A stretch of 64,000 nucleotides of DNA from Marinitoga hydrogenitolerans DSM 16785 (GTDB lineage: Bacteria > Thermotogota > Thermotogae > Petrotogales > Petrotogaceae): positions 62,001-126,000 of the forward strand of contig NZ_FQUI01000001.1 of the NCBI RefSeq assembly GCF_900129175.1, in the 5' to 3' direction. The position numbers and the translations under genes are program-made. The notes beneath the pieces are model-generated. The model did no database searches, was not told the DNA's origin, and saw only the letters and a program-made list of their open reading frames with translations. Positions 18,712 to 36,427 of the stretch are shown here, one piece after another (within the stretch, counting starts at the first letter, position 1; each line of letters starts with the position of its first letter).

Positions 18712-19713
18712 ATGCGTAAAACACTTTTAGTATTGGCATTAGTTCTTTTTGGAGTATTATCTTTTGCATTTAAAGATGTTCCAGAAGATCATTGGGCATA
18801 TGAGTATGTTATGGACTTAGCAAATAGAGGTATTCTTCCTATGGAAGATAATTTCAATCCAGACATTGTTTTAACAAAAGCTGAAGTTGCTGTATTATTA
18901 TCAGATACATTGACTTATGTTGAAAATGACCCTGTTTTAGCAAAAGCCGAAGATATTAAAAGAGTAGAAACAGTTTTAAAAATGTTAGATAAAAAATTAG
19001 CAGGATTATCCTCGTTATCTGATGACGTTGCTGTAAATATCGAAAATATCGATGGATTATGGGAAGAATTAGATACAGTAAAATCTGATTTAGATTATGT
19101 TGCTGGACAAAATGTAAAAGAACATCAAGAATTAAAAGATATGATTTCAAAAAAAGCTGATATGGATACTGTAGATAAGTTATCAAAAGATTTAGAAAAG
19201 ACAAATGCAAAATTAGAAACAATAACAAAAGTTGCTTACAGAGCATTTAACAACGCAGATATGTTAGTAGAAGATATGTTAGATCTTCAAGATCAAGTGG
19301 ATGAATTATCTGGAAATTTTGACACTTTCAAAACTTATACAGCAAGAAGTTTAATGGAATTAAAATATAAAACTCTTGATTTAGAAGATAGATTGTCAAA
19401 TGATGAAGATAAATTAGCAAAATTAGAAGGTATTAACACAAAATTAAATGCAATTGAATCAGCTGTAACTGCAAATCAAACAGTTTTAATTAGCTTAACA
19501 AAAAAGAGTAAAGATTTAGAAGATAAATTAGGAATGACTTCAAGTGATTTATCAAAAGTTCAATATTTATCTAAAGATTTATCAGATAGAATGGTTAATG
19601 TTGAAGGAAAAGTTGCTGCTAATGAAGAATCATCAAACAAGGCTAACATGTTAGCAATGGTTGGAATAGCATTAGCAGGTGTTGCATTAGTATTACCATT
19701 TGTAGTAAAATAA
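18712..19713 (+). CDS. Toga anchor protein, Omp-alpha-like (SLH domain plus coiled coil)
   Basis: The 333-residue protein has a signal peptide (MRKTLLVLALVLFGVLSFA), one S-layer homology domain (about 20-65, DVPEDHWAYEYVMDLANRG), a long coiled-coil rod (about 75-305) and a C-terminal hydrophobic helix (about 312-331). This is the layout of Thermotoga Omp-alpha, a rod that spans the periplasm between cell wall and toga. Its own near-consensus promoter and GAGGGGG ribosome site suggest strong expression, and the porin gene follows immediately. Confidence 0.9.
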   Translation: MRKTLLVLALVLFGVLSFAFKDVPEDHWAYEYVMDLANRGILPMEDNFNPDIVLTKAEVAVLLSDTLTYVENDPVLAKAEDIKRVETVLKMLDKKLAGLSSLSDDVAVNIENIDGLWEELDTVKSDLDYVAGQNVKEHQELKDMISKKADMDTVDKLSKDLEKTNAKLETITKVAYRAFNNADMLVEDMLDLQDQVDELSGNFDTFKTYTARSLMELKYKTLDLEDRLSNDEDKLAKLEGINTKLNAIESAVTANQTVLISLTKKSKDLEDKLGMTSSDLSKVQYLSKDLSDRMVNVEGKVAANEESSNKANMLAMVGIALAGVALVLPFVVK

Positions 19714-19826: not shown

Positions 19827-21344
19827 ATGAAGAAAGTTTTGGTATTGTTATCCGTATTAGTATTTTCTCTTTCGTTATTTGCTCAAACAAACGTAGAAGT
19901 TTCTACAGAAGCTTGGGTACAAGGAAGTGTTACTTTTACCTTAGGGTTAGATGAAAATGGTCTTGATTTGAGTTTTAATCAATTTGATAATTATGCAGGT
20001 TACACATTACACACAGGTATTTATATAACAATACCTACAGGTGTAAGTGCTGATGACTCAGCAACATTATCTGCAAATGTTTCAGGATCTTTTGGTTTAG
20101 ATAGTTGGACAACATTTGGAATTAGCGATATGACATACGAAGATGCAAATGTAAAATTATATTTAGCTAACTATCCATACTATGGAACTTTCTCTTCATA
20201 CACAGTTGCTAACTATGATAACAATTATGATGGTTCTACAGATGATCCTTTAGGATCTCATTATGCCGAATTAACTGTAAAAGATTTTGGATTAGACGTT
20301 TTATATGTTGATTTAAGTTCTAGTTATGATGTTACTGATCATTCAACATCTACAAAAGATGCTTCTTTCTTAAATTCTGATGTTTTTGCAGTAAAAAAAT
20401 CTTTAGATCTTGGAATGTTTGACTTAACAGCTGCTGGTGCATTCTGGGCTTCAGCCCCAATGGCAAGAACATCTGGAGTAGCTTTAGGTTACTCAGCAGA
20501 CGTTAATTTATCCGGTAAAGAAGGATTAAAAGGGTTAGGGGTAAATGCTGTATATGGTGCTCAAAGTGCTACAGAAACAGATTTATCAGAAAAAGCTATG
20601 AGAATATTCGTAGATTATAGTAAAGATTTTGAAGCTGGAATCGTGACATTATCACCATATGTTTCATTCAAATATCAAAAAGGTATAAATAAATTAGCTT
20701 TAGTAAACCAAGCATGGTCAGGAGATGCATCAGAAGTATATGCTTCTTTAACATCTAATTTTGATTTTGGTTTAACTTTAGGTGTAGACGGACTATACAA
20801 ATTATCATCAGATGCTACTCCAGAATTTTCAGCTTATGCTAATTTCGCAAAGAAATTTGCTGATTTAGCAAATCTTGAAATGTTAAAAGTTACAAGAGAA
20901 TGGGATACAACAGATGTTGCAACAAATGTTCTAAGATTCTCCGTTAAAGTTACAGGTTCTCAAACATTTGATATAGTAACTGCAGGATATAGTTTATTTG
21001 CAAGAGTTCCAAACTTATTAGATAATCCAGGGGAAACATATTGGTTATTTGCAAATCCATATGTAACTTTAAAACCTGTAGATAAAGTTTCTGTAGATGC
21101 TAATTTATATGCATATATCGACGCGTCTGAAGCTGATGCTGATAAAAAAGATGATTTTGGTTATTCTTTGAATATTGCATATAATCCAAATTCAGTTATT
21201 GAATTAGGTGCTCACTTAGGTAATGAAGTAAGTGGATATTCTTATGATGATGATTTTGGAGATTTCTATTATTATACAGGTAATGCTTCTGGATTTGGTG
21301 GATATCACTGGTATGCATACGTTACAGGAACTGTAGAATTTTAA
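19827..21344 (+). CDS. Outer-envelope beta-barrel porin (toga protein, Omp-beta-like)
   Basis: The 505-residue protein has a signal peptide ending in LSLFAQ, then alternating beta strands throughout with many Tyr, Asp and Gly residues, and ends in a strand with a C-terminal phenylalanine (YVTGTVEF), the usual outer-membrane barrel signal. Position directly after the SLH/coiled-coil anchor supports assignment as the toga porin. GGAGGTTG precedes the ATG, and codon use is biased toward frequent codons as for abundant proteins. The exact family cannot be named from sequence alone. Confidence 0.82.
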   Translation: MKKVLVLLSVLVFSLSLFAQTNVEVSTEAWVQGSVTFTLGLDENGLDLSFNQFDNYAGYTLHTGIYITIPTGVSADDSATLSANVSGSFGLDSWTTFGISDMTYEDANVKLYLANYPYYGTFSSYTVANYDNNYDGSTDDPLGSHYAELTVKDFGLDVLYVDLSSSYDVTDHSTSTKDASFLNSDVFAVKKSLDLGMFDLTAAGAFWASAPMARTSGVALGYSADVNLSGKEGLKGLGVNAVYGAQSATETDLSEKAMRIFVDYSKDFEAGIVTLSPYVSFKYQKGINKLALVNQAWSGDASEVYASLTSNFDFGLTLGVDGLYKLSSDATPEFSAYANFAKKFADLANLEMLKVTREWDTTDVATNVLRFSVKVTGSQTFDIVTAGYSLFARVPNLLDNPGETYWLFANPYVTLKPVDKVSVDANLYAYIDASEADADKKDDFGYSLNIAYNPNSVIELGAHLGNEVSGYSYDDDFGDFYYYTGNASGFGGYHWYAYVTGTVEF

Positions 21345-28510: not shown

Positions 28511-30112
28511 TCATTCCCATTTCTTCATTCTTTCTTTTACGTTATTTAATTCTTTATAAGATAAATATATAGTTAAGAATATTAAGATTATAGGCAATAC
28601 TCCCCCGAGAAAATGGTATAAAGCAGTTGAGTCAAATAAGAAATCAATTAATTGTTCTTTTATTTCTATATTTTTTAAAGAGGAAATATATAAATTTCCT
28701 GGCAAAAATATTCCAAGTCCAAGTCCAAGAATAATGCCTTCAAGATAAAAAACTTCTTTTCCACTTATAATATTTTTTTGGGATAAATCTCTTTTAGGAT
28801 TTTTTAAATAAAGACTAATTCCGAGTATGGAAGAATACATAATTATTAAAATTACTGGAATAATACTCCAAAAAACCTCTATAGATGCTTTTCCTGATAA
28901 ATATATTAATACTGTTATAGCAATATACTCAACAACGTATATTATAAAAGGCATAAATGCTTTTGAAAAAATTAAATGTCCTATTTTGATAGGGTATAAT
29001 TTTGGTACTGGCCATAATTTCCCTTCATATGAAATGGCGTAAATAGCAACCATTGCAGCATAAATAGCAGCGATCATAACAAAAATAATACTTATCATAT
29101 CAAGTGATGTAGAAGAAAACATAAATATTATTGGAAAAAATAAAGGATATAATAAAAGGAAAAACGTTTGTGAATCTCTAAAAAGCAGTTTAAAATCTTT
29201 TTTTAATATTGGGAATTTTGAGCTTTTAAACTTAATTTCTGCTTTTTTCTTTTTTCCCTTTTTTCTTGATACAGAAAATTCAAGTGTATTTGATAAGTAA
29301 TAAATTACATAAGATAATATAAGTATAGTTGAATACAGCAAAATCAAGAAAGGAATACTACCTTTCATTACTTTAATTACCCATGTATGAGGCCAGAAAA
29401 TATTTAAGATTATATTTGACATTCTTTCAAGGGCGTTGGCTAATTGAGAAGGAGGAGTATTTGCAAAGTTGGGGAGTAAATTACTAATTCCAACATAGAA
29501 AAAAATACTTATAAAATACATAATCATTGTCCAGCGCTTAGCGGACGTTTTTGTTAAAAATTTTGAAAATAATATACCTCCTAAATTTGAAATTAATAAC
29601 AATAGAATTAAAAATCCAATGCCTCCAAGTATGCTGAAAATAATGCTATTTTTAGCTATTAAAGCATAAACTGCAAAAATTGGTATCATCATTCCCAGAG
29701 GGAGCCCGGCCATTATTAAACTATCAATGGCACTTGCTATATATATCGATGAACGCCTTATTGGCATAGAAAGCAACAATTGAGTCATTTCACTTTCATA
29801 TAAATTTGCAACAATAGCAGGTGAATAATTTAAGAAAAACATGAATCCCATAAGTAGAAACCACATTCCAAAAATCACATCTAAAATAGTCCAGGGCAAA
29901 TTTATACCTAATTGAGAAAACGGAATGTTTAATTCTTTAAACATAAAATACATCATCGGGGCGAGAGAACCTCCAAATATTATAGCAGGAAGTATATAAG
30001 CCATTAAAGCTCCCCATGGGCCTCGCTTTTTATATGTGCCATCTTTTTTCTGTTTTGGTCTTAATTTATTTTGATATGAATATTTTAATATTAATATAAT
30101 CTTATTTTTCAT
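28511..30112 (-). CDS. ABC-2-type exporter permease
   Basis: The 533-residue membrane protein has about twelve helices in two sets of six, separated by a charged segment (near 270-285, RKKGKKKKAEIK). It starts with a basic cytoplasmic leader. The size and paired layout fit fused ABC-2 permeases. The substrate is unknown. It lies ten bases after the ATPase gene and is the last gene of the two-component/export operon. Confidence 0.82.
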   Translation of the reverse strand: MKNKIILILKYSYQNKLRPKQKKDGTYKKRGPWGALMAYILPAIIFGGSLAPMMYFMFKELNIPFSQLGINLPWTILDVIFGMWFLLMGFMFFLNYSPAIVANLYESEMTQLLLSMPIRRSSIYIASAIDSLIMAGLPLGMMIPIFAVYALIAKNSIIFSILGGIGFLILLLLISNLGGILFSKFLTKTSAKRWTMIMYFISIFFYVGISNLLPNFANTPPSQLANALERMSNIILNIFWPHTWVIKVMKGSIPFLILLYSTILILSYVIYYLSNTLEFSVSRKKGKKKKAEIKFKSSKFPILKKDFKLLFRDSQTFFLLLYPLFFPIIFMFSSTSLDMISIIFVMIAAIYAAMVAIYAISYEGKLWPVPKLYPIKIGHLIFSKAFMPFIIYVVEYIAITVLIYLSGKASIEVFWSIIPVILIIMYSSILGISLYLKNPKRDLSQKNIISGKEVFYLEGIILGLGLGIFLPGNLYISSLKNIEIKEQLIDFLFDSTALYHFLGGVLPIILIFLTIYLSYKELNNVKERMKKWE

Positions 30113-30122
30113 TAGATCCCCC

Positions 30123-30875
30123 CTATAATTCCTTTATTATATCATCTAATTCCCCAGCACCTGTTAATTCAAGGAATAAATCTTCAAGTGTTTGTTTTTC
30201 ACCAGTTTTTGATAGGCTTTTTAATTCTTCCAATGTTCCTTCAGCTATTAAATTACCACTTGATATTATACCAATTCTATCACACATTTTTTCTGCAATC
30301 TCAAGAATATGTGTTGTCATAAATATTGTTGCACCTTCATGAGCGTATTTTTCTATTAGCATTTTTAATATTTTTGCAGATTTTGCATCGAGGCCAACTG
30401 TAGGTTCATCTAAAAATATAACTTTTGGTTTTCGCATTAATACAGAAGCAACCATTAACTTTTGTTTCATTCCATGAGAATAATCTCCAATAAAAGAATC
30501 AAGATAATCAATTTCAAAGGCATCACAGATTTCATCAAGCCTTTTTTTTGCATCATCTTTTCTGACTTCATATATATCCATAATAAATTCAATAAATTCC
30601 GATCCTTTTAAGTTTTCATACATTTTTGGTTCGTCAGGAACTACTCCGATATTAGCTTTGATTTTAATTTCATGTGTTTTCATATTCATTCCAAGAATTT
30701 CGATATTTCCATCTGAAGGTTGTAATGTTCCGGTTAGCATCCTTATAGTAGTGGTTTTTCCTGCACCATTTGGGCCTAAAAAACCATAGATTTCTCCGGG
30801 TTTGATATCAAGGTTTATGTTATTTACCGCAGTGAAATCCCCAAATTTCCTCACCAAATTCCTTGCTTTAATCAT
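30123..30875 (-). CDS. ABC transporter ATP-binding protein of the exporter
   Basis: The 250-residue protein has Walker A GPNGAGKTT, signature YSHGMKQKLM, Walker B VIFLDEPTVGLD and switch histidine TTHILEIAE. It is of the CcmA/NatA exporter type and probably energises the adjacent permease. ATG at 30875 has GGAGG eight bases upstream; the in-frame GTG at 30884 is part of that ribosome site. It starts 16 bases after the response-regulator stop. Confidence 0.93.
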   Translation of the reverse strand: MIKARNLVRKFGDFTAVNNINLDIKPGEIYGFLGPNGAGKTTTIRMLTGTLQPSDGNIEILGMNMKTHEIKIKANIGVVPDEPKMYENLKGSEFIEFIMDIYEVRKDDAKKRLDEICDAFEIDYLDSFIGDYSHGMKQKLMVASVLMRKPKVIFLDEPTVGLDAKSAKILKMLIEKYAHEGATIFMTTHILEIAEKMCDRIGIISSGNLIAEGTLEELKSLSKTGEKQTLEDLFLELTGAGELDDIIKEL

Positions 30876-30890
30876 AAGTTGCACCTCCGT

Positions 30891-31616
30891 TTAAAAATTG
30901 AATTTATTTTTTATATAATTTAAATGGCTTCTGCCAATTTTCAGTTCAGTTCCATTATCAAGTTCTAAAATATAATCCCGAACAAAAAATTTTTTAAATT
31001 TTTTTATATGTTCAATTGAGACAATATAACTTTTGTGTATTCTAATAAATTTTTCCGGGTCTAATTTCATTTCTAAATTTTTTAAAGTATCATCATAGTA
31101 ATATTCCTGATTTTTTGTACATAAAAAAACATATTTATCCTCTGCCTTGAAGTAATATACATCAGTTTCTGGAATTATTAATATAATATCTCTGTCTTTT
31201 ACCGAAAATTTATTTATGTATTGTATATTAATATTATCTAATATTTTTTTAGTTAATAACTTTTTTCTTTCCGTTGTTCTATCTATAGCTATTTTTAATC
31301 GTTTTAAATCAAAAGGTTTTAGTAAATAATCTATAGCATTTTCTTCAAAAGCTTTTATAGCATATTCTTGATATGCCGTTATAAAAATCACAAGTGGTTC
31401 ATAAGATAAATTTTTTAAAATTTCAAAACCACTTTTTTCTGGTAGATTAATATCAAGAAATAATAGATCAGGTCTTTTTTCTTCTATTAAATCAATGGCT
31501 TCGTCACCATTTTTGCTTTCACCTATTATTTCAATGCTTTCAAAATTTTCCAGCATTTTTTTTAATCTATTTAAAGCTCTCTCTTCATCCTCGATTATAA
31601 TACATTTAATCATCAT
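30891..31616 (-). CDS. LytTR-family response regulator
   Basis: The 241-residue protein has a receiver domain with acidic pocket EDE (9-11), phospho-acceptor D55 (LFLDINLPE), the conserved Thr in FITAYQEYA and Lys in LLKPF, then a LytTR DNA-binding domain (about 135-241: RIHKSYIVSIEHIKKF and KIGRSHLNYIK). LytTR proteins bind paired direct repeats upstream of target promoters. The ATG overlaps the kinase stop by four bases. Confidence 0.95.
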   Translation of the reverse strand: MMIKCIIIEDEERALNRLKKMLENFESIEIIGESKNGDEAIDLIEEKRPDLLFLDINLPEKSGFEILKNLSYEPLVIFITAYQEYAIKAFEENAIDYLLKPFDLKRLKIAIDRTTERKKLLTKKILDNINIQYINKFSVKDRDIILIIPETDVYYFKAEDKYVFLCTKNQEYYYDDTLKNLEMKLDPEKFIRIHKSYIVSIEHIKKFKKFFVRDYILELDNGTELKIGRSHLNYIKNKFNF

Positions 31617-32629
31617 ATTTCCCCCATATTTTGTATTGATATAATAACTTTTATACCTGATGGATTATTTTGATATATATTAAAATTAGCATTATTTTTA
31701 TATATAAGATTTAGTCTATTGATAACACTTGAAATGCCAAAGCCATATCTTATATTTTCAACTTTTCCTATACCATTATCAGATATTTCTATTATAAATA
31801 AAGTGTTTTTTAGATGTATATTTATATTTATAAAACCGCCATTTTTTTTTGGAGCAATGCCATGGATTATGGCATTTTCCACCAAAGGTTCTATAATTAG
31901 TGTAGGAATTTTATAATTTAAAGTTTTTTTATCAATGTTTATATAATATTTTAATCTATCTCCAAGTCTCACTTTTTCAATTTCTAGATATTTTGTTACT
32001 ATATTTAATTCATCTTCAACAGTACAAAAATCTTTGTCTGAAGAGTATAATATTTTTCTATATATGTCTGAAAGATTTATAATAATTTGTTCAACTTTTT
32101 CAGGAGATTCATATGCCAGATCTATTATAGCATTCAATGTATTAAAAAGAAAATGTGGGTTTAATTTAGCCCTAAGCGCTATTAATTCTGATTTTAACTT
32201 TTCGCTTTTTAATTTTTCGTTTTCAATGATTTTAATTCTGAGTTTTCTATATATTAAAATTATTGATACAATTAAAAAAATAAGTATAATATTAACAATT
32301 AAAAATAAGTATTTATATGAAGGGGAAAGATTAAATGATAATAAATTTGACATAATATATTCTGAAATAACTATACCAGAAAAAAAACTAAAAATCAAAA
32401 TTAAAAATTGTAAAATTTTTCTTAAAAATTGTATTTCAATTTTTATAAACGAATACAATAATTTTTCCAGTAAAAAATATATTATTCCAATTGAATTAGA
32501 AAAAATTTCGGCAATTATTAATCCATGCCAGAAATTAAAATAAGGAGAAAAAATATATATGAGAATTAATATAAATATAGAACTTATCTGATTTTCTACT
32601 AAAATAATGTGCAATTTTTTATTTTTCAT
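31613..32629 (-). CDS. LytS-type sensor histidine kinase
   Basis: The 338-residue kinase has four membrane helices (about 12-30, 38-60, 72-98, 108-127) and almost no extracytoplasmic domain. A short coiled coil leads to the His_kinase motif LNPHFLFNTLNAI (phospho-acceptor H159), then an ATPase domain with N box PLVENAIIHG, G1 ISDNGIG and G2 GFGISSV. Such intramembrane-sensing kinases detect changes in or at the membrane. It overlaps both the upstream exported-protein gene (11 bases) and the regulator gene (4 bases). Confidence 0.93.
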   Translation of the reverse strand: MKNKKLHIILVENQISSIFILILIYIFSPYFNFWHGLIIAEIFSNSIGIIYFLLEKLLYSFIKIEIQFLRKILQFLILIFSFFSGIVISEYIMSNLLSFNLSPSYKYLFLIVNIILIFLIVSIILIYRKLRIKIIENEKLKSEKLKSELIALRAKLNPHFLFNTLNAIIDLAYESPEKVEQIIINLSDIYRKILYSSDKDFCTVEDELNIVTKYLEIEKVRLGDRLKYYINIDKKTLNYKIPTLIIEPLVENAIIHGIAPKKNGGFININIHLKNTLFIIEISDNGIGKVENIRYGFGISSVINRLNLIYKNNANFNIYQNNPSGIKVIISIQNMGEI

Positions 32630-33158
32630 AATATATCAACCTATAATAATTTGGATATTCTTTTAATTTTTTTAATAAAGATTTTGCTTTTTCTTTATTA
32701 TCAAATTCATATATCCGGTATAATTTATACAATACTTCACCAAAGTCAAATTTATTTTTGAAATCATCATTCACTCTAATATAAATATATTCAAAATCAT
32801 TAATAAAAATTTTTCTCGCAAAGTCATATGATAAAATTTCAAATGCGGTTTTTCCTCTTATATATCGATATATGAGGTTGTCAAAATTCTCTTTGACAAC
32901 CTCTTTCATTTCCAGCATTCCACTATAAAGATAATAATATTTTAAAGGTAAAAACCATTCATGTTTTGCTTTTTTAACCAACACACTCCCATGGATTATT
33001 TTATTTAATCCATTTTTACTCGATTCTGTAGTATTTAATATCTTATTTAATTCAGCCTTATTTAATTTATCAAAATTATTCAGATAGTAATTTAATATAT
33101 TTTCTGAAAATACGTATGAAGAAAGTAAAAGTAATATAATTATAATCCGTTTTTTCAT
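32619..33158 (-). CDS. Exported protein of unknown function
   Basis: The 179-residue product has a signal peptide (MKKRIIIILLLLSSYVFS) and a mature part that is predicted helical, rich in Lys, Tyr, Leu and Asn, with TPR-like helix pairs. No family is recognised. It shares one base with the stop of the barrel gene upstream and overlaps the kinase start by 11 bases, so it is part of the same translational chain and could be a periplasmic input to the kinase. Confidence 0.7.
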   Translation of the reverse strand: MKKRIIIILLLLSSYVFSENILNYYLNNFDKLNKAELNKILNTTESSKNGLNKIIHGSVLVKKAKHEWFLPLKYYYLYSGMLEMKEVVKENFDNLIYRYIRGKTAFEILSYDFARKIFINDFEYIYIRVNDDFKNKFDFGEVLYKLYRIYEFDNKEKAKSLLKKLKEYPNYYRLIYYEK

Positions 33159-33799
33159 TAGAACCCCCAGATAATTCCCGCTCCAAATGAATAATAGTAG
33201 TTATAATTAGGCACATTATCCGTTATTTGATATTCTCCTTCAATTTTCCAGTTTTCGGGTGAATAATTATATGTGAATTTACCTTCTATTACAACACTTA
33301 AGAATTCCATTAGGTTTAAATAAATTTTAGCTCTTGGGGAAATAGAAACTTCTTCTCTTTTTAATTGTACCACATATGGAACAGAATCAATATTATTTAC
33401 AATATCATCAATAGATTTTCCATTTCTTGATTCATCAACTTTTTTACTTACAATAGTTTCTCCGCCACCCAGGCCAATTCCAACATCAATATTTATTATG
33501 TTTAAATTAATTTGTTTTCCGAAAGTGAAATATCCTTGAGAAACATATAATTTATAATTTCCGTTTGTAGTTTCACCACTATAACCTTCTCCACCAAAGT
33601 AAGAACCGCCTGGTATTATACCAAAACCGCCACCACCTTGTAAAATTAATTCATCGAAAGATAAATAATCTTTTAAAGGGTTAATCTGTTTTACCTGATC
33701 TTTAGGAATGTAATTAAGTATATATCCACCGCCACCAAAATTAATTGAAAATATTGAAACAGAAAATACCAGAGTAAAAATTAAAATCATTTTTTTCAT
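33158..33799 (-). CDS. Small outer-envelope beta-barrel-like protein
   Basis: The 213-residue product has a signal peptide (MKKMILIFTLVFSVSIFS), a glycine-rich N-terminal region with GGGG clusters, amphipathic strands and a C-terminal strand ending in phenylalanine (SFGAGIIWGF), which is typical of outer-membrane barrels. The size suits an eight-strand barrel. No named family is recognised. The ATG at 33799 has GGAGG eight bases upstream. Confidence 0.7.
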   Translation of the reverse strand: MKKMILIFTLVFSVSIFSINFGGGGYILNYIPKDQVKQINPLKDYLSFDELILQGGGGFGIIPGGSYFGGEGYSGETTNGNYKLYVSQGYFTFGKQINLNIINIDVGIGLGGGETIVSKKVDESRNGKSIDDIVNNIDSVPYVVQLKREEVSISPRAKIYLNLMEFLSVVIEGKFTYNYSPENWKIEGEYQITDNVPNYNYYYSFGAGIIWGF

Positions 33800-33812
33800 A
33801 ATATACACCTCC

Positions 33813-34514
33813 TCAATATTTTATAATTTGAATATTTTTATTTGAATTTATCTTACCAGTATTATTTTTATTCATTTTTACTGTTATATTTTCTGAAATA
33901 GAATTTATTTTAATATTTCTGGAATCATTCCATGTATCCAGAAAAAAGATATTGCCACTTATAGATATGCTATCAAGATTTATATTTTTTAACATTTTAG
34001 CCTTTATGTCTATAATCAGCGAAACACTATCAACATTTAAATTTTTTGCAAAAATATTTCCATTGATCCTTATACTTGTTCCATCAATATTTAGAGTATT
34101 TCCAATAAAGGTGAATGTATTTTTTAGTATAATATTAGTTCCAGATATTTCTGCAATATTACTATTTACATTGCCATTTAACGTTATATTTAATCCGTTT
34201 ATTTCAATATTTTCATATGTATATTTAGTTCCAATAATTATTTCGAGATATCTATTTCTACTTCCGCTATTTAAAATTAATTCTTTATCTCTTTTTTTAA
34301 TTAATATTTTAGATGGATAATATATTTGCGTGGCTTCAGGATCGAATTTTATATTTACATTTAAACCAGTAATTTTTATTTCTTTAATATCTTTTAAATT
34401 CATGGTTTTATCTGGTATTAGCGAATAATCGTTAATGCTATATTCTGTAATTTGAAGTGCCATTAAAATAAAAACGATTCCAACTAAAGGAATAAAATAC
34501 CAATATTCTCTCAT
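33813..34514 (-). CDS. Membrane-anchored beta-repeat protein (DUF4097/adhesin-like)
   Basis: The 233-residue protein has one N-terminal membrane helix (about 4-22) and then a ladder of short beta repeats with motifs such as INGLNITLNGN, ISGTNIILKN, IDGTSIRINGN and LDSISISGNIF, spaced by about 20 residues. This resembles the beta-helix of DUF4097 or bactofilin-like proteins; family membership is an inference. It is the first gene of the two-component/export operon. The start is ATG 34514; the earlier frame start at 34529 is just before a GGAGGTGAT ribosome site. Confidence 0.7.
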   Translation of the reverse strand: MREYWYFIPLVGIVFILMALQITEYSINDYSLIPDKTMNLKDIKEIKITGLNVNIKFDPEATQIYYPSKILIKKRDKELILNSGSRNRYLEIIIGTKYTYENIEINGLNITLNGNVNSNIAEISGTNIILKNTFTFIGNTLNIDGTSIRINGNIFAKNLNVDSVSLIIDIKAKMLKNINLDSISISGNIFFLDTWNDSRNIKINSISENITVKMNKNNTGKINSNKNIQIIKY

Positions 34515-34568
34515 ATTATCACCTCCCATATCTATAATAACTCTGATAAAAAATCATTCAAAATACTT

Positions 34569-34603
34569 TTTGATAATATGTCATATAAATTGATATATTG
34601 TCA
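34569..34603 (-). promoter_or_regulatory. Tandem operator-like repeats and possible promoter of the two-component/export operon
   Basis: Two 14-bp repeats, TTGATAATATGTCA (34569-34582) and TTGATATATTGTCA (34589-34602), match at 11 of 14 positions and are exactly 20 bases apart. Each also has TGA-N7-TCA dyad symmetry. On minus a perfect TTGACA (34598-34603) starts the distal repeat and TATTAT (34572-34577) lies in the proximal one with a long spacer of 20. This is 55-90 bases before the first operon gene. Confidence 0.5.
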
Positions 34604-34648
34604 ATAAAGTAAAAAGCAGTTCCAAATCGGAACTGCTTTTTACTTTAT
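34602..34648 (-). terminator. Terminator of the PHP-type hydrolase gene
   Basis: A 21-bp perfect inverted repeat with a 5-nt loop contains the hydrolase stop codon. The GC core GCAGTTCC/GGAACTGC is followed on minus by TTTTTACTTT, acting as the U-tract. It directly abuts the operator region of the next operon. Confidence 0.9.
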
Positions 34649-36378
34649 TTTATTTTCAATAATTTTTTTAAAAACACTTCATTCTCTGCACTTTCAAAAG
34701 GATTACCTGTAAATATTACATAGTTTTTATTAAGAATAAATCCTCTTTCTTTACCTTTAAATAATATTTTAAATCCATTATTAAAGTATAATTTATTTAA
34801 TATTTTATTATTAAATTTTTCAGTTGTTATCTCATATTTAGTTGGAATTAAATTTAATAAATTCTCATTAATTTCATCTAGAACTATTCCAATCCTTTTA
34901 TTTTTAGATAATTCAACAATTTTATTATACATAATTTCATCTTTTAAAGCACTTGAGGATATCAAAATAATATAAGAATTTTCTGAAAGGTTATTTTTAA
35001 TTGTATATTTTCCCTTAAAAATTTCCGGATTAATATCTATAGCTGATATAATTATTTTATCTTTTAAAATAATATCATTTTCATACCATAATAAGTTATT
35101 AATATAGATTTTTAAATTTATTTTGTCTTTATCAGGGGTTTTTAACATTGTATTTATCATCCTTTTCTCAAAAGAAGATAAATTAATTTTATTATCATAT
35201 TTTAATGAATCATCTATATATATTTTTATATCAGCACTGGATTTTTTATTAAGAACGTTATATAAATAAAAATTATAATTATTTCCTGAATTTTTATACA
35301 TAACAGTTTTTGGCAAGTCAAAAAGCCTTATACCATCTTTCGATTCATACCATATCGCTGTAGAAACTACCTTATCTCCATCTTCTTGTTCTAAACTTGC
35401 AAAAACAAAGAAATATGGTGAATCTATAGGAATTTCAATTTCTTTTTCAAATTCAAAAGGTAAATTATCAAAAACATATAAATTATTTGGTGTATAAATT
35501 TTTAACTTTTTCACATTTTCTTTATCAGGATCTTTATAATAAACATTTAATTTTATATTTTCAGGTATAGAGTTATAATAATATATGTCACCCATCATAG
35601 CTTTATTTGTTTCAATCCAAAGTTTAACATTTTTATCTTCAGTTCCATATGTTTTTCTATTGAAAAAAGAATTTAATATTTCTTTTTTTGTCCTTGATTT
35701 TACCCATAATGCCGTTCTTGAATCATTTCCTGTCCCCCAATTGGCAGCATGATTGTCTTGACCAACTGTTGCTCCCACATGCCAACCTTTTTTTAATGCT
35801 AAAATATAATTAGAAAACATTTCATCATTTATTGTATCATTTTTCGACCAGCTTCCATTTCCTACTTCAATTAAATTTATATATTGATCAACTTCAGGAT
35901 AATATTCAAAATTTTTGAATATACCAAACATAGAAATCGGATGATTAAATTGAGCTACTGCTTTTTCGTTAACCAGCCAGTTATAAAACTCTTCTGTAGT
36001 TGTTTTAACATTTCGACTAGTCCACGTATTTGCTTGAAAAACATTTATATGACCACTACCTGATGTCCATTCAAAACCGGCTAATGCTACAAAATTTTTT
36101 GTTGTTTCTTTTTCAGCCATTTCTTTCATAACTTCAAATTTATCCCGGTTGTTATATTTAGCCTCAAAATAATAAGCGTGGTCTGTAACTGCTAAGAAAT
36201 CAATATTTGCAACATCCCTCGCATATTTATATGCATCCTCTGGTATTGTTCCTGGTTCTCCATCAGAAAATGATGTATGAGAATGTGGATTACCAAATAA
36301 TAGTATTAAGTCATTTGGAAAAGAGAAAATTAATATAGAATTGATAATCAAAAAAATTAAAACATAGTATCTTTTCAT
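34645..36378 (-). CDS. Secreted PHP-domain hydrolase, CehA/McbA family
   Basis: The 577-residue protein has a signal peptide (start ATG 36378, preceded by AAGGAAGGTGG) and an N-terminal PHP metal-dependent domain with GNPHSHTSFSDG, FLAVTDHAYYF, AGFEWTS and GQDNHAANWG as metal ligands. The rest is beta-rich with a C-terminal domain of unknown type. CehA/McbA members hydrolyse carbamates or phosphoesters, but most are uncharacterised; the natural substrate here is unknown. It is a single-gene unit with terminators on both sides. Confidence 0.85.
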   Translation of the reverse strand: MKRYYVLIFLIINSILIFSFPNDLILLFGNPHSHTSFSDGEPGTIPEDAYKYARDVANIDFLAVTDHAYYFEAKYNNRDKFEVMKEMAEKETTKNFVALAGFEWTSGSGHINVFQANTWTSRNVKTTTEEFYNWLVNEKAVAQFNHPISMFGIFKNFEYYPEVDQYINLIEVGNGSWSKNDTINDEMFSNYILALKKGWHVGATVGQDNHAANWGTGNDSRTALWVKSRTKKEILNSFFNRKTYGTEDKNVKLWIETNKAMMGDIYYYNSIPENIKLNVYYKDPDKENVKKLKIYTPNNLYVFDNLPFEFEKEIEIPIDSPYFFVFASLEQEDGDKVVSTAIWYESKDGIRLFDLPKTVMYKNSGNNYNFYLYNVLNKKSSADIKIYIDDSLKYDNKINLSSFEKRMINTMLKTPDKDKINLKIYINNLLWYENDIILKDKIIISAIDINPEIFKGKYTIKNNLSENSYIILISSSALKDEIMYNKIVELSKNKRIGIVLDEINENLLNLIPTKYEITTEKFNNKILNKLYFNNGFKILFKGKERGFILNKNYVIFTGNPFESAENEVFLKKLLKIK

Positions 36379-36427
36379 TTTTCCACCTTCCTTTTGCAAA
36401 ATAATTATAACCTTATATTATATCATA

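Follow-up and report, generated by a model that had tools for sequence, protein, structure and literature searches.

A pair of direct repeats before a LytTR operon of Marinitoga, a predicted operator shared with an unlinked PspC operon

The window analysed here, a stretch of 64,000 nucleotides from Marinitoga hydrogenitolerans DSM 16785, contains two direct repeats spaced by about two turns of the helix, directly upstream of an operon that encodes a LytS-type kinase and a LytTR regulator. The pair, its spacing, its place before a predicted promoter, its conservation in the genus and its recurrence at a second, unlinked operon can all be read from the sequences. It is almost certainly a transcription-factor site serving two operons. 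In our reading of the whole, to which we give a probability of about 0.78, the pair is a LytTR operator through which the regulator would activate its own operon and control the PspC operon, as part of a PspA-free envelope-stress response.

The repeat pair and the predicted promoter

The first-pass annotation placed two tandem palindromic repeats at 34569-34603. Both 14-mers are present, but the span begins one base too early, the copies lying at 34570-34583 and 34590-34603. The rest of that description agrees with the sequence: the copies have the same orientation and a period of 20 bp, 11 of 14 positions are identical, each copy has the form TGA-N7-TCA, and a perfect TTGACA lies in the distal repeat (minus strand, 34604-34599). 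Read on the operon strand, the pair is TGACnnnnTATC twice with a spacing of 20 bp. The intergenic sequence of this strand is TTGACAATATATCAATTTATATGACATATTATCAAAAAGTATTTTGAATGATTTTTTATCAGAGTTATTATAGATATGGGAGGTGATAATATG, and the two words given originally are the reverse complements of its initial two repeats. Coordinates are collected in Table 1.

Table 1. Predicted elements and genes of the LytTR operon (window coordinates)
Feature	Position	Strand	Description
Terminator-like hairpin	34604..34648	-	where the upstream CehA/McbA-type gene ends; almost symmetric, reported on + by the scan
Distal half-site TGACAATATATC	34592..34603	-	predicted; distal equivalents in sister genomes more degenerate
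Proximal half-site TGACATATTATC	34572..34583	-	predicted; most conserved element (TGnCnnnnTATC in 7/7 genus operon promoters)
-35 box TTGAAT	34556..34561	-	predicted from consensus; position constant in orthologues
-10 box TATTAT	34534..34539	-	predicted; 16-nt spacer from TTGAAT
Gene A	33813..34514	-	first gene; N-terminal transmembrane helix and Toastrack-type beta-helix, predicted
Gene B (216 aa)	33158..33808	-	N-terminal signal-peptide-like helix and small outer-membrane beta-barrel fold, predicted
Gene C (179 aa)	32619..33158	-	no Pfam match; conserved in the operon
Histidine kinase, LytS type	31613..32629	-	PF06580
Response regulator	30891..31616	-	fifth gene, presumed binder; PF00072 and PF04397 LytTR (1.7e-25)
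ABC transporter ATPase	30123..30884	-	Pfam scan
Membrane protein, presumed ABC permease	28511..30112	-	orthologues follow the ATPase in 7/7 genus genomes

When the 116-bp intergenic stretch was shuffled 1000 times with its dinucleotide composition kept, 94 shuffles contained a 14-mer pair at least 11/14 alike at a period of 18-24, so that pair identity alone is weak evidence in such A+T-rich DNA. Two TGA-N7-TCA words at this period occurred in none of 1000 shuffles. A refined pair pattern, composed after the orthologues had been seen, gave one match in the 64-kb window at up to three mismatches (shuffle mean 0.09; at least one match in 9 of 100 shuffles). The conservation among species described below is stronger evidence for the pair than these shuffle statistics.

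The proximal site ends 10 nt before the predicted -35 box, or 9 nt with the alternative frame TTTGAA (34562-34557). A promoter scan scored TTGACA-18-CATATT (34604-34575), which lies within the repeats, at 10/12 and the downstream TTGAAT-16-TATTAT at 9/12. In the relatives only the downstream promoter keeps its position, and three of the seven operon promoters of the genus have a perfect TATAAT. TTGACA in the distal copy is confined to the window among 12 aligned sites, namely seven operon promoters and five PspC promoters, those of PspC in genomes G001 and G002 being left out. The distal TTGACA is probably not the -35 box and was rejected as such. The pair occupies an activator position with respect to the predicted promoter, and because the recurring promoter lies downstream of both repeats, activation rather than occlusion would be expected. 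The original proposal that binding would cover the promoter through the distal TTGACA is thus unlikely.

The upstream gene ends at 34645 with the terminator-like hairpin, from which we infer that the operon has a promoter of its own. This gene, a CehA/McbA-family metallohydrolase (34645-36399, minus strand), stands directly upstream of the operon in six of the seven genus genomes and was not found at the G002 locus. The start of gene A was taken at the conserved MREYW, while the ORF list starts at an in-frame ATG at 34529. Between the operon promoter and gene A of G005 sits an insert with a TwoAYGGAY RNA element (RF01731, 46.2 bits, cut-off 43) on the opposite strand (locus L083, 7440-7597). 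DNA matches to this 251-base region, counted with partial ones included and with only 40 candidates scored per genome, number 50 in G005, 23 each in G004 and G002, 7 each in G000 and G003, 3 in G001 and 1 in G006, and the family behaves like a dispersed repeat in these genomes.

Conservation in the genus and a second operon

The order of gene A, gene B, gene C, kinase, regulator, ABC ATPase and permease is kept in the seven genus genomes, and the first five genes are partly found again in other genera and families. In G002 the operon begins with an extra gene, B-like by eye, which the promoter precedes. Gene B of G003 matches in two frames. The kinase gene of G004 is split by about 1.6 kb carrying a 415-aa transposase-like ORF (L085, 4470-6088), presumably IS256-like, and both promoters of this genome keep the pair. 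At the L090 locus of G007, from another genus, gene C, kinase and regulator are kept, but a search for genes A and B gave no match there.

Alignment of the orthologous upstream regions, the check proposed in the first-pass annotation, showed the paired direct repeats before the LytTR operon in all seven genus genomes. Each promoter has TGnCnnnnTATC, then 9-10 nt, a -35-like hexamer, 15-17 nt and a -10-like hexamer, with a weaker second copy 20-21 bp upstream of TGnCnnnnTATC. The spacing is 21 bp in five relatives and 20 in the window, and G002 fits better at 20. Within the half-site, conservation is highest at the G and the C of TGnC and at the C that closes TATC, and the distal half-site is degenerate across genomes. 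When a leave-one-out matrix was used to score 200-bp stretches around the site, the best pair was the true site in 7/7 operon promoters; this score was reached by 0/300 shuffles in six genomes and by 29/300 in G003. Apparent third copies of the half-site one period further upstream, near 3890-3960 of L086 (G006) and near 10100-10170 of L142 (G002), suggest that binding of a higher order may occur. Beyond the genus the evidence for the pair fades: shuffles reached the score of the operon promoter 4 times in 500 for G010, 278 for G011 and 33 for G013, and the promoter of G042 was equalled by only one of 500, yet its proximal half is poor. No pair precedes the kinase gene of a paralogous LytTR locus on contig C8, where 420/500 shuffles reach the score.

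The same pair was also sought elsewhere, as had been proposed, and a second target that the earlier annotation lacked was obtained. With a matrix trained solely on the operon promoters, it was found before an unlinked PspC/LiaF/ABC operon in five of the seven genus genomes (G000, G003, G004, G005 and G006), with scores of 17.7-22.2 bits and 0/300 shuffles each, and in all five the proximal site ends 9 nt before a -35-like hexamer. This operon encodes PspC (PF04024, 5.6e-24), two LiaF/LiaI-like membrane proteins (LiaF-TM, 3.8e-6; LiaI-LiaF-like TM, 1.5e-7), an ABC ATPase and permeases. PspC orthologues are present in 7/7 genus genomes. In G002 the PspC promoter has a marginal pair (6.2 bits, 12/300 shuffles) with a one-base insertion in the site, and in G001 no pair was found there (131/300 shuffles) though the regulator and the operon site are present.

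PspC matches were obtained in 20 of 21 family genomes, G007 being the one without, and the 200 bp upstream were scored in 18 of these 20 (G013 and G016 were left out, as the open frame was not recovered). No pair precedes PspC in G010 and G011, which have the regulator (248/300 and 40/300 shuffles). The nine family genomes that keep PspC and have no close orthologue of the regulator gave no convincing site: their scores run from -0.5 to 3.9, and G008, which has the smallest shuffle count among them (4/300), reaches a raw score of only 3.9.

Searched in the seven genomes with up to three mismatches, the operon-site pair pattern matched 26 times at period 21 (reversed control 24) and 12 times at period 20 (reversed control 11), so that the totals do not exceed chance. 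Its only three one-mismatch matches are the operon promoters of G000, G004 and G006, and its three-mismatch matches on contigs G000:C15, G005:C48 and G006:C2 fall at the same place, upstream of the PspC operon. A pattern built from PspC-type sites gave 25 matches against 9 in the control, and each of the five with at most two mismatches is a PspC promoter. When the grammar was extended to the whole layout (TGACnnnnTATC, 9 nt, TT, spacer, TATWWT), it matched seven times in the seven genomes, always in the two promoters; since it was written after the sites had been seen and its reversed control gave 6 matches, the placement and not the count of 7 is the evidence. A loose TTGATA pair pattern in the window's own genome was uninformative (111 matches, 54 forward and 57 reverse; control 28).

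A relaxed grammar had 23 matches in the 21 family genomes, 16 of them in the genus (reversed controls: 11 in all, 5 in the genus), and 9 of these 16 are in the two promoters. The other 14 comprise eight inside an ORF, five overlapping the start of an ORF on the opposite strand, and one intergenic in G010, upstream of an ORF on the same strand. Only one of them recurs at one and the same place in the genus, in L211 (G001) and L209 (G006) at 1501-1548, between genes that we take to be HrcA-like and MurE-like. MurE would be an envelope gene; however, the match was not counted as a third target because the letters of the motif coincide with the region of the first gene's start codon, and it is probably due to chance. 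A 12-site pair matrix gave 37 matches of at least 11 bits over 20 DNA sources of the genus (19 loci and the window, of which some overlap and several were chosen from pair-pattern matches). Two matches above 20 bits fall inside coding sequence, so that a pair without a promoter is an unsafe predictor. One is in L140, in an ORF that we take to be phosphoribosyltransferase-like; the other, at 19398 of the window (minus strand), is in a gene presumed to encode an SLH-like protein. The latter, a coiled-coil protein (18712-19713), is followed by a large barrel-like protein (19827-21344), both on the plus strand, a pair which to us is reminiscent of the toga proteins of Thermotogales.

The candidate regulator and alternative readings

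The kinase with PF06580 adjoins a regulator with receiver and LytTR domains, which is the arrangement of a LytS/LytTR two-component system. The regulator is the only DNA-binding protein among the six proteins of its own operon scanned with Pfam, and no regulator was found among the first five proteins of the PspC operon. Published LytTR operators are built of two repeats, direct or inverse, each 9-11 nt long and separated by 11-13 nt (PMC4847170); in LytTR regulatory systems the majority of repeats are separated by 12 bp and show a strong tendency to lie 10 bp before the -35 (PMC6193735). Here the start-to-start distance of 20-21 bp corresponds to 9-nt repeats with 11-12 nt between, and in 7/7 operon promoters the pair ends 9-10 nt before the predicted -35 box, inside the span of about 4-11 bp taken for LytTR sites. 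Two repeats about two turns apart and just upstream of the promoter are likewise described for HdrR/BrsR of Streptococcus mutans, YpdB of Escherichia coli and AgrA of Staphylococcus aureus (PMC6193735, PMC4847170, PMC4227749), and HdrR autoactivates through its repeats (PMC6193735). LytTR sites are stated to have no common consensus (PMC4847170), so the word TGACnnnnTATC cannot prove membership in this family; it differs from the published S. pneumoniae repeat ACCACTTAC.

The binder is thus most likely the LytTR regulator of the operon itself, judging by gene content and layout. Autoregulation by this downstream-encoded protein, as first proposed, is still the best reading and the layout fits the published operators. 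Control of the PspC operon through the same site is also most likely, and since one site precedes both operons, one sensor system probably controls both.

The palindromic form noted at first is not what is conserved. TGA-N7-TCA is kept in 7 of the 12 proximal sites and in 1 of the 12 distal ones, and the promoter in the window is the sole one of the 12 with the dyad in both copies. The forward leave-one-out matrix outscores its reverse complement at 12/12 proximal sites. The conserved unit is an asymmetric TGnC...TATC at a fixed phase and distance from the -35, and the dyad was rejected as the recognised unit on these counts. They also bear on the reading in which a different regulator, for example a dimeric helix-turn-helix protein encoded elsewhere, would read the dyads and control both operons. 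Both copies in the window do have this form, which no shuffle produced as a pair, and it survives in most proximal sites; however, the loss of the dyad from the distal sites, the preference for the forward matrix, the asymmetric unit and the Pfam scans of both operons, with no other DNA-binding protein among the 6 and 5 proteins, make such a regulator unlikely.

Still less probable is repression by occlusion, in which the pair would overlap a real promoter, TTGACA-18-CATATT, and the regulator would shut off its own operon. The perfect TTGACA and the scan result (10/12 against 9/12) speak for it, but among the 12 aligned sites this hexamer is found in the distal copy of the window alone, the 18-nt spacer with CATATT is poor, and the downstream boxes recur at a fixed distance, with their perfect TATAAT in three promoters. 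As for a chance repeat in A+T-rich DNA, 94 of 1000 shuffles did yield a pair as similar; this reading is nevertheless scarcely credible and was rejected, since the pair is conserved in all seven operon promoters of the genus and in five of the seven PspC promoters, where it was detected by a matrix blind to those promoters.

We therefore keep to the LytTR regulator as an activator of its own operon and of the PspC operon, a probable course of events that we infer from sequence and from the published systems. The regulator, presumably phosphorylated by the adjoining LytS-type kinase, would bind both half-sites, direct repeats of the word TGACnnnnTATC, on the same face of the DNA. From there, immediately before a -35 box that most of these promoters have only in a weak form, it would recruit RNA polymerase. 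This would produce positive feedback on the operon for the Toastrack protein, the outer-membrane barrel, gene C, the kinase, the regulator and the ABC transporter, and the same site before the unlinked operon would bring PspC, the two LiaF/LiaI-like proteins and a further ABC transporter under the same control. The whole may constitute a PspA-free envelope-stress response, with a presumed stress signal at its head.

Predicted envelope proteins and relation to known systems

The cell envelope is the theme common to both operons. The structure model of gene A (pLDDT 88.5, 238-aa form) has one transmembrane helix and a beta-helix, and its structural matches include 4QRK (VIA-align Z 10.6, 138 aligned, rmsd 2.7), 4OPW (Z 12.7, 192 aligned, rmsd 3.5) and 3LYC. 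Examples of Toastrack given in PMC11237479 include 4OPW and 4QRK. The sequence match is weak, with 1 of 11 members matching DUF2807 at 1e-4, and no significant profile similarity to the LiaF-like protein was found. A Toastrack fold is predicted from the model. The model of gene B (pLDDT 85.5) resembles the OmpA domain 1BXW (Z 16.9, rmsd 2.4, 155 aligned) and NspA 1P4T (Z 16.8), and a small outer-membrane barrel is predicted by fold. PspA/IM30 (PF04012) was found in none of the seven genus genomes by a search that was positive in 9 of 14 control genomes. The two predicted folds of genes A and B point to a PspA-free envelope-stress system.

In its components the system is like the PSP/Lia and PspA-free Toastrack systems, with PspC, LiaF-TM, LiaI-like and Toastrack proteins, a two-component system and ABC transporters. 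It differs from PSP/Lia systems in that Toastrack and PspC/LiaF are in two unlinked operons joined by one predicted LytTR-type operator, in that an outer-membrane barrel is included, and in that PspA is absent in 7/7 genomes. Predicted two-component control of LiaI/LiaF-type genes recalls LiaSR of Bacillus subtilis, whose LiaR has a winged helix-turn-helix output, whereas the regulator here is of the LytTR type. In the LytTR Regulatory System (LRS, HdrRM type), which is distinct from two-component systems, a LytTR regulator such as HdrR is paired with a membrane inhibitor and is not known to carry a receiver domain. The present regulator differs in having the receiver PF00072 and, as its partner, the adjoining kinase. 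PspA-free Toastrack systems with two-component regulators, and LytTR near Toastrack genes in Firmicutes, have already been reported (PMC11237479). A literature search confined to open-licence papers returned no such operator, no LytTR regulator controlling PspC/LiaF in trans and no described LytTR regulon in Thermotogota.

In the boldest form, for which we see an even chance, one LytS/LytTR system would, as master switch, govern a PspA-free envelope-stress response across both membranes, feeding back on itself, sensing through the Toastrack protein and the barrel, and turning on the PspC/LiaF/ABC operon through the TGACnnnnTATC pair, with a recruitment of PspC that would be recent and confined to the genus. 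For a LytTR regulator of the Thermotogota the analysis predicts an explicit operator word together with a regulon of two operons, and it places Toastrack, an outer-membrane barrel and PspC/LiaF under the control of a single predicted switch.
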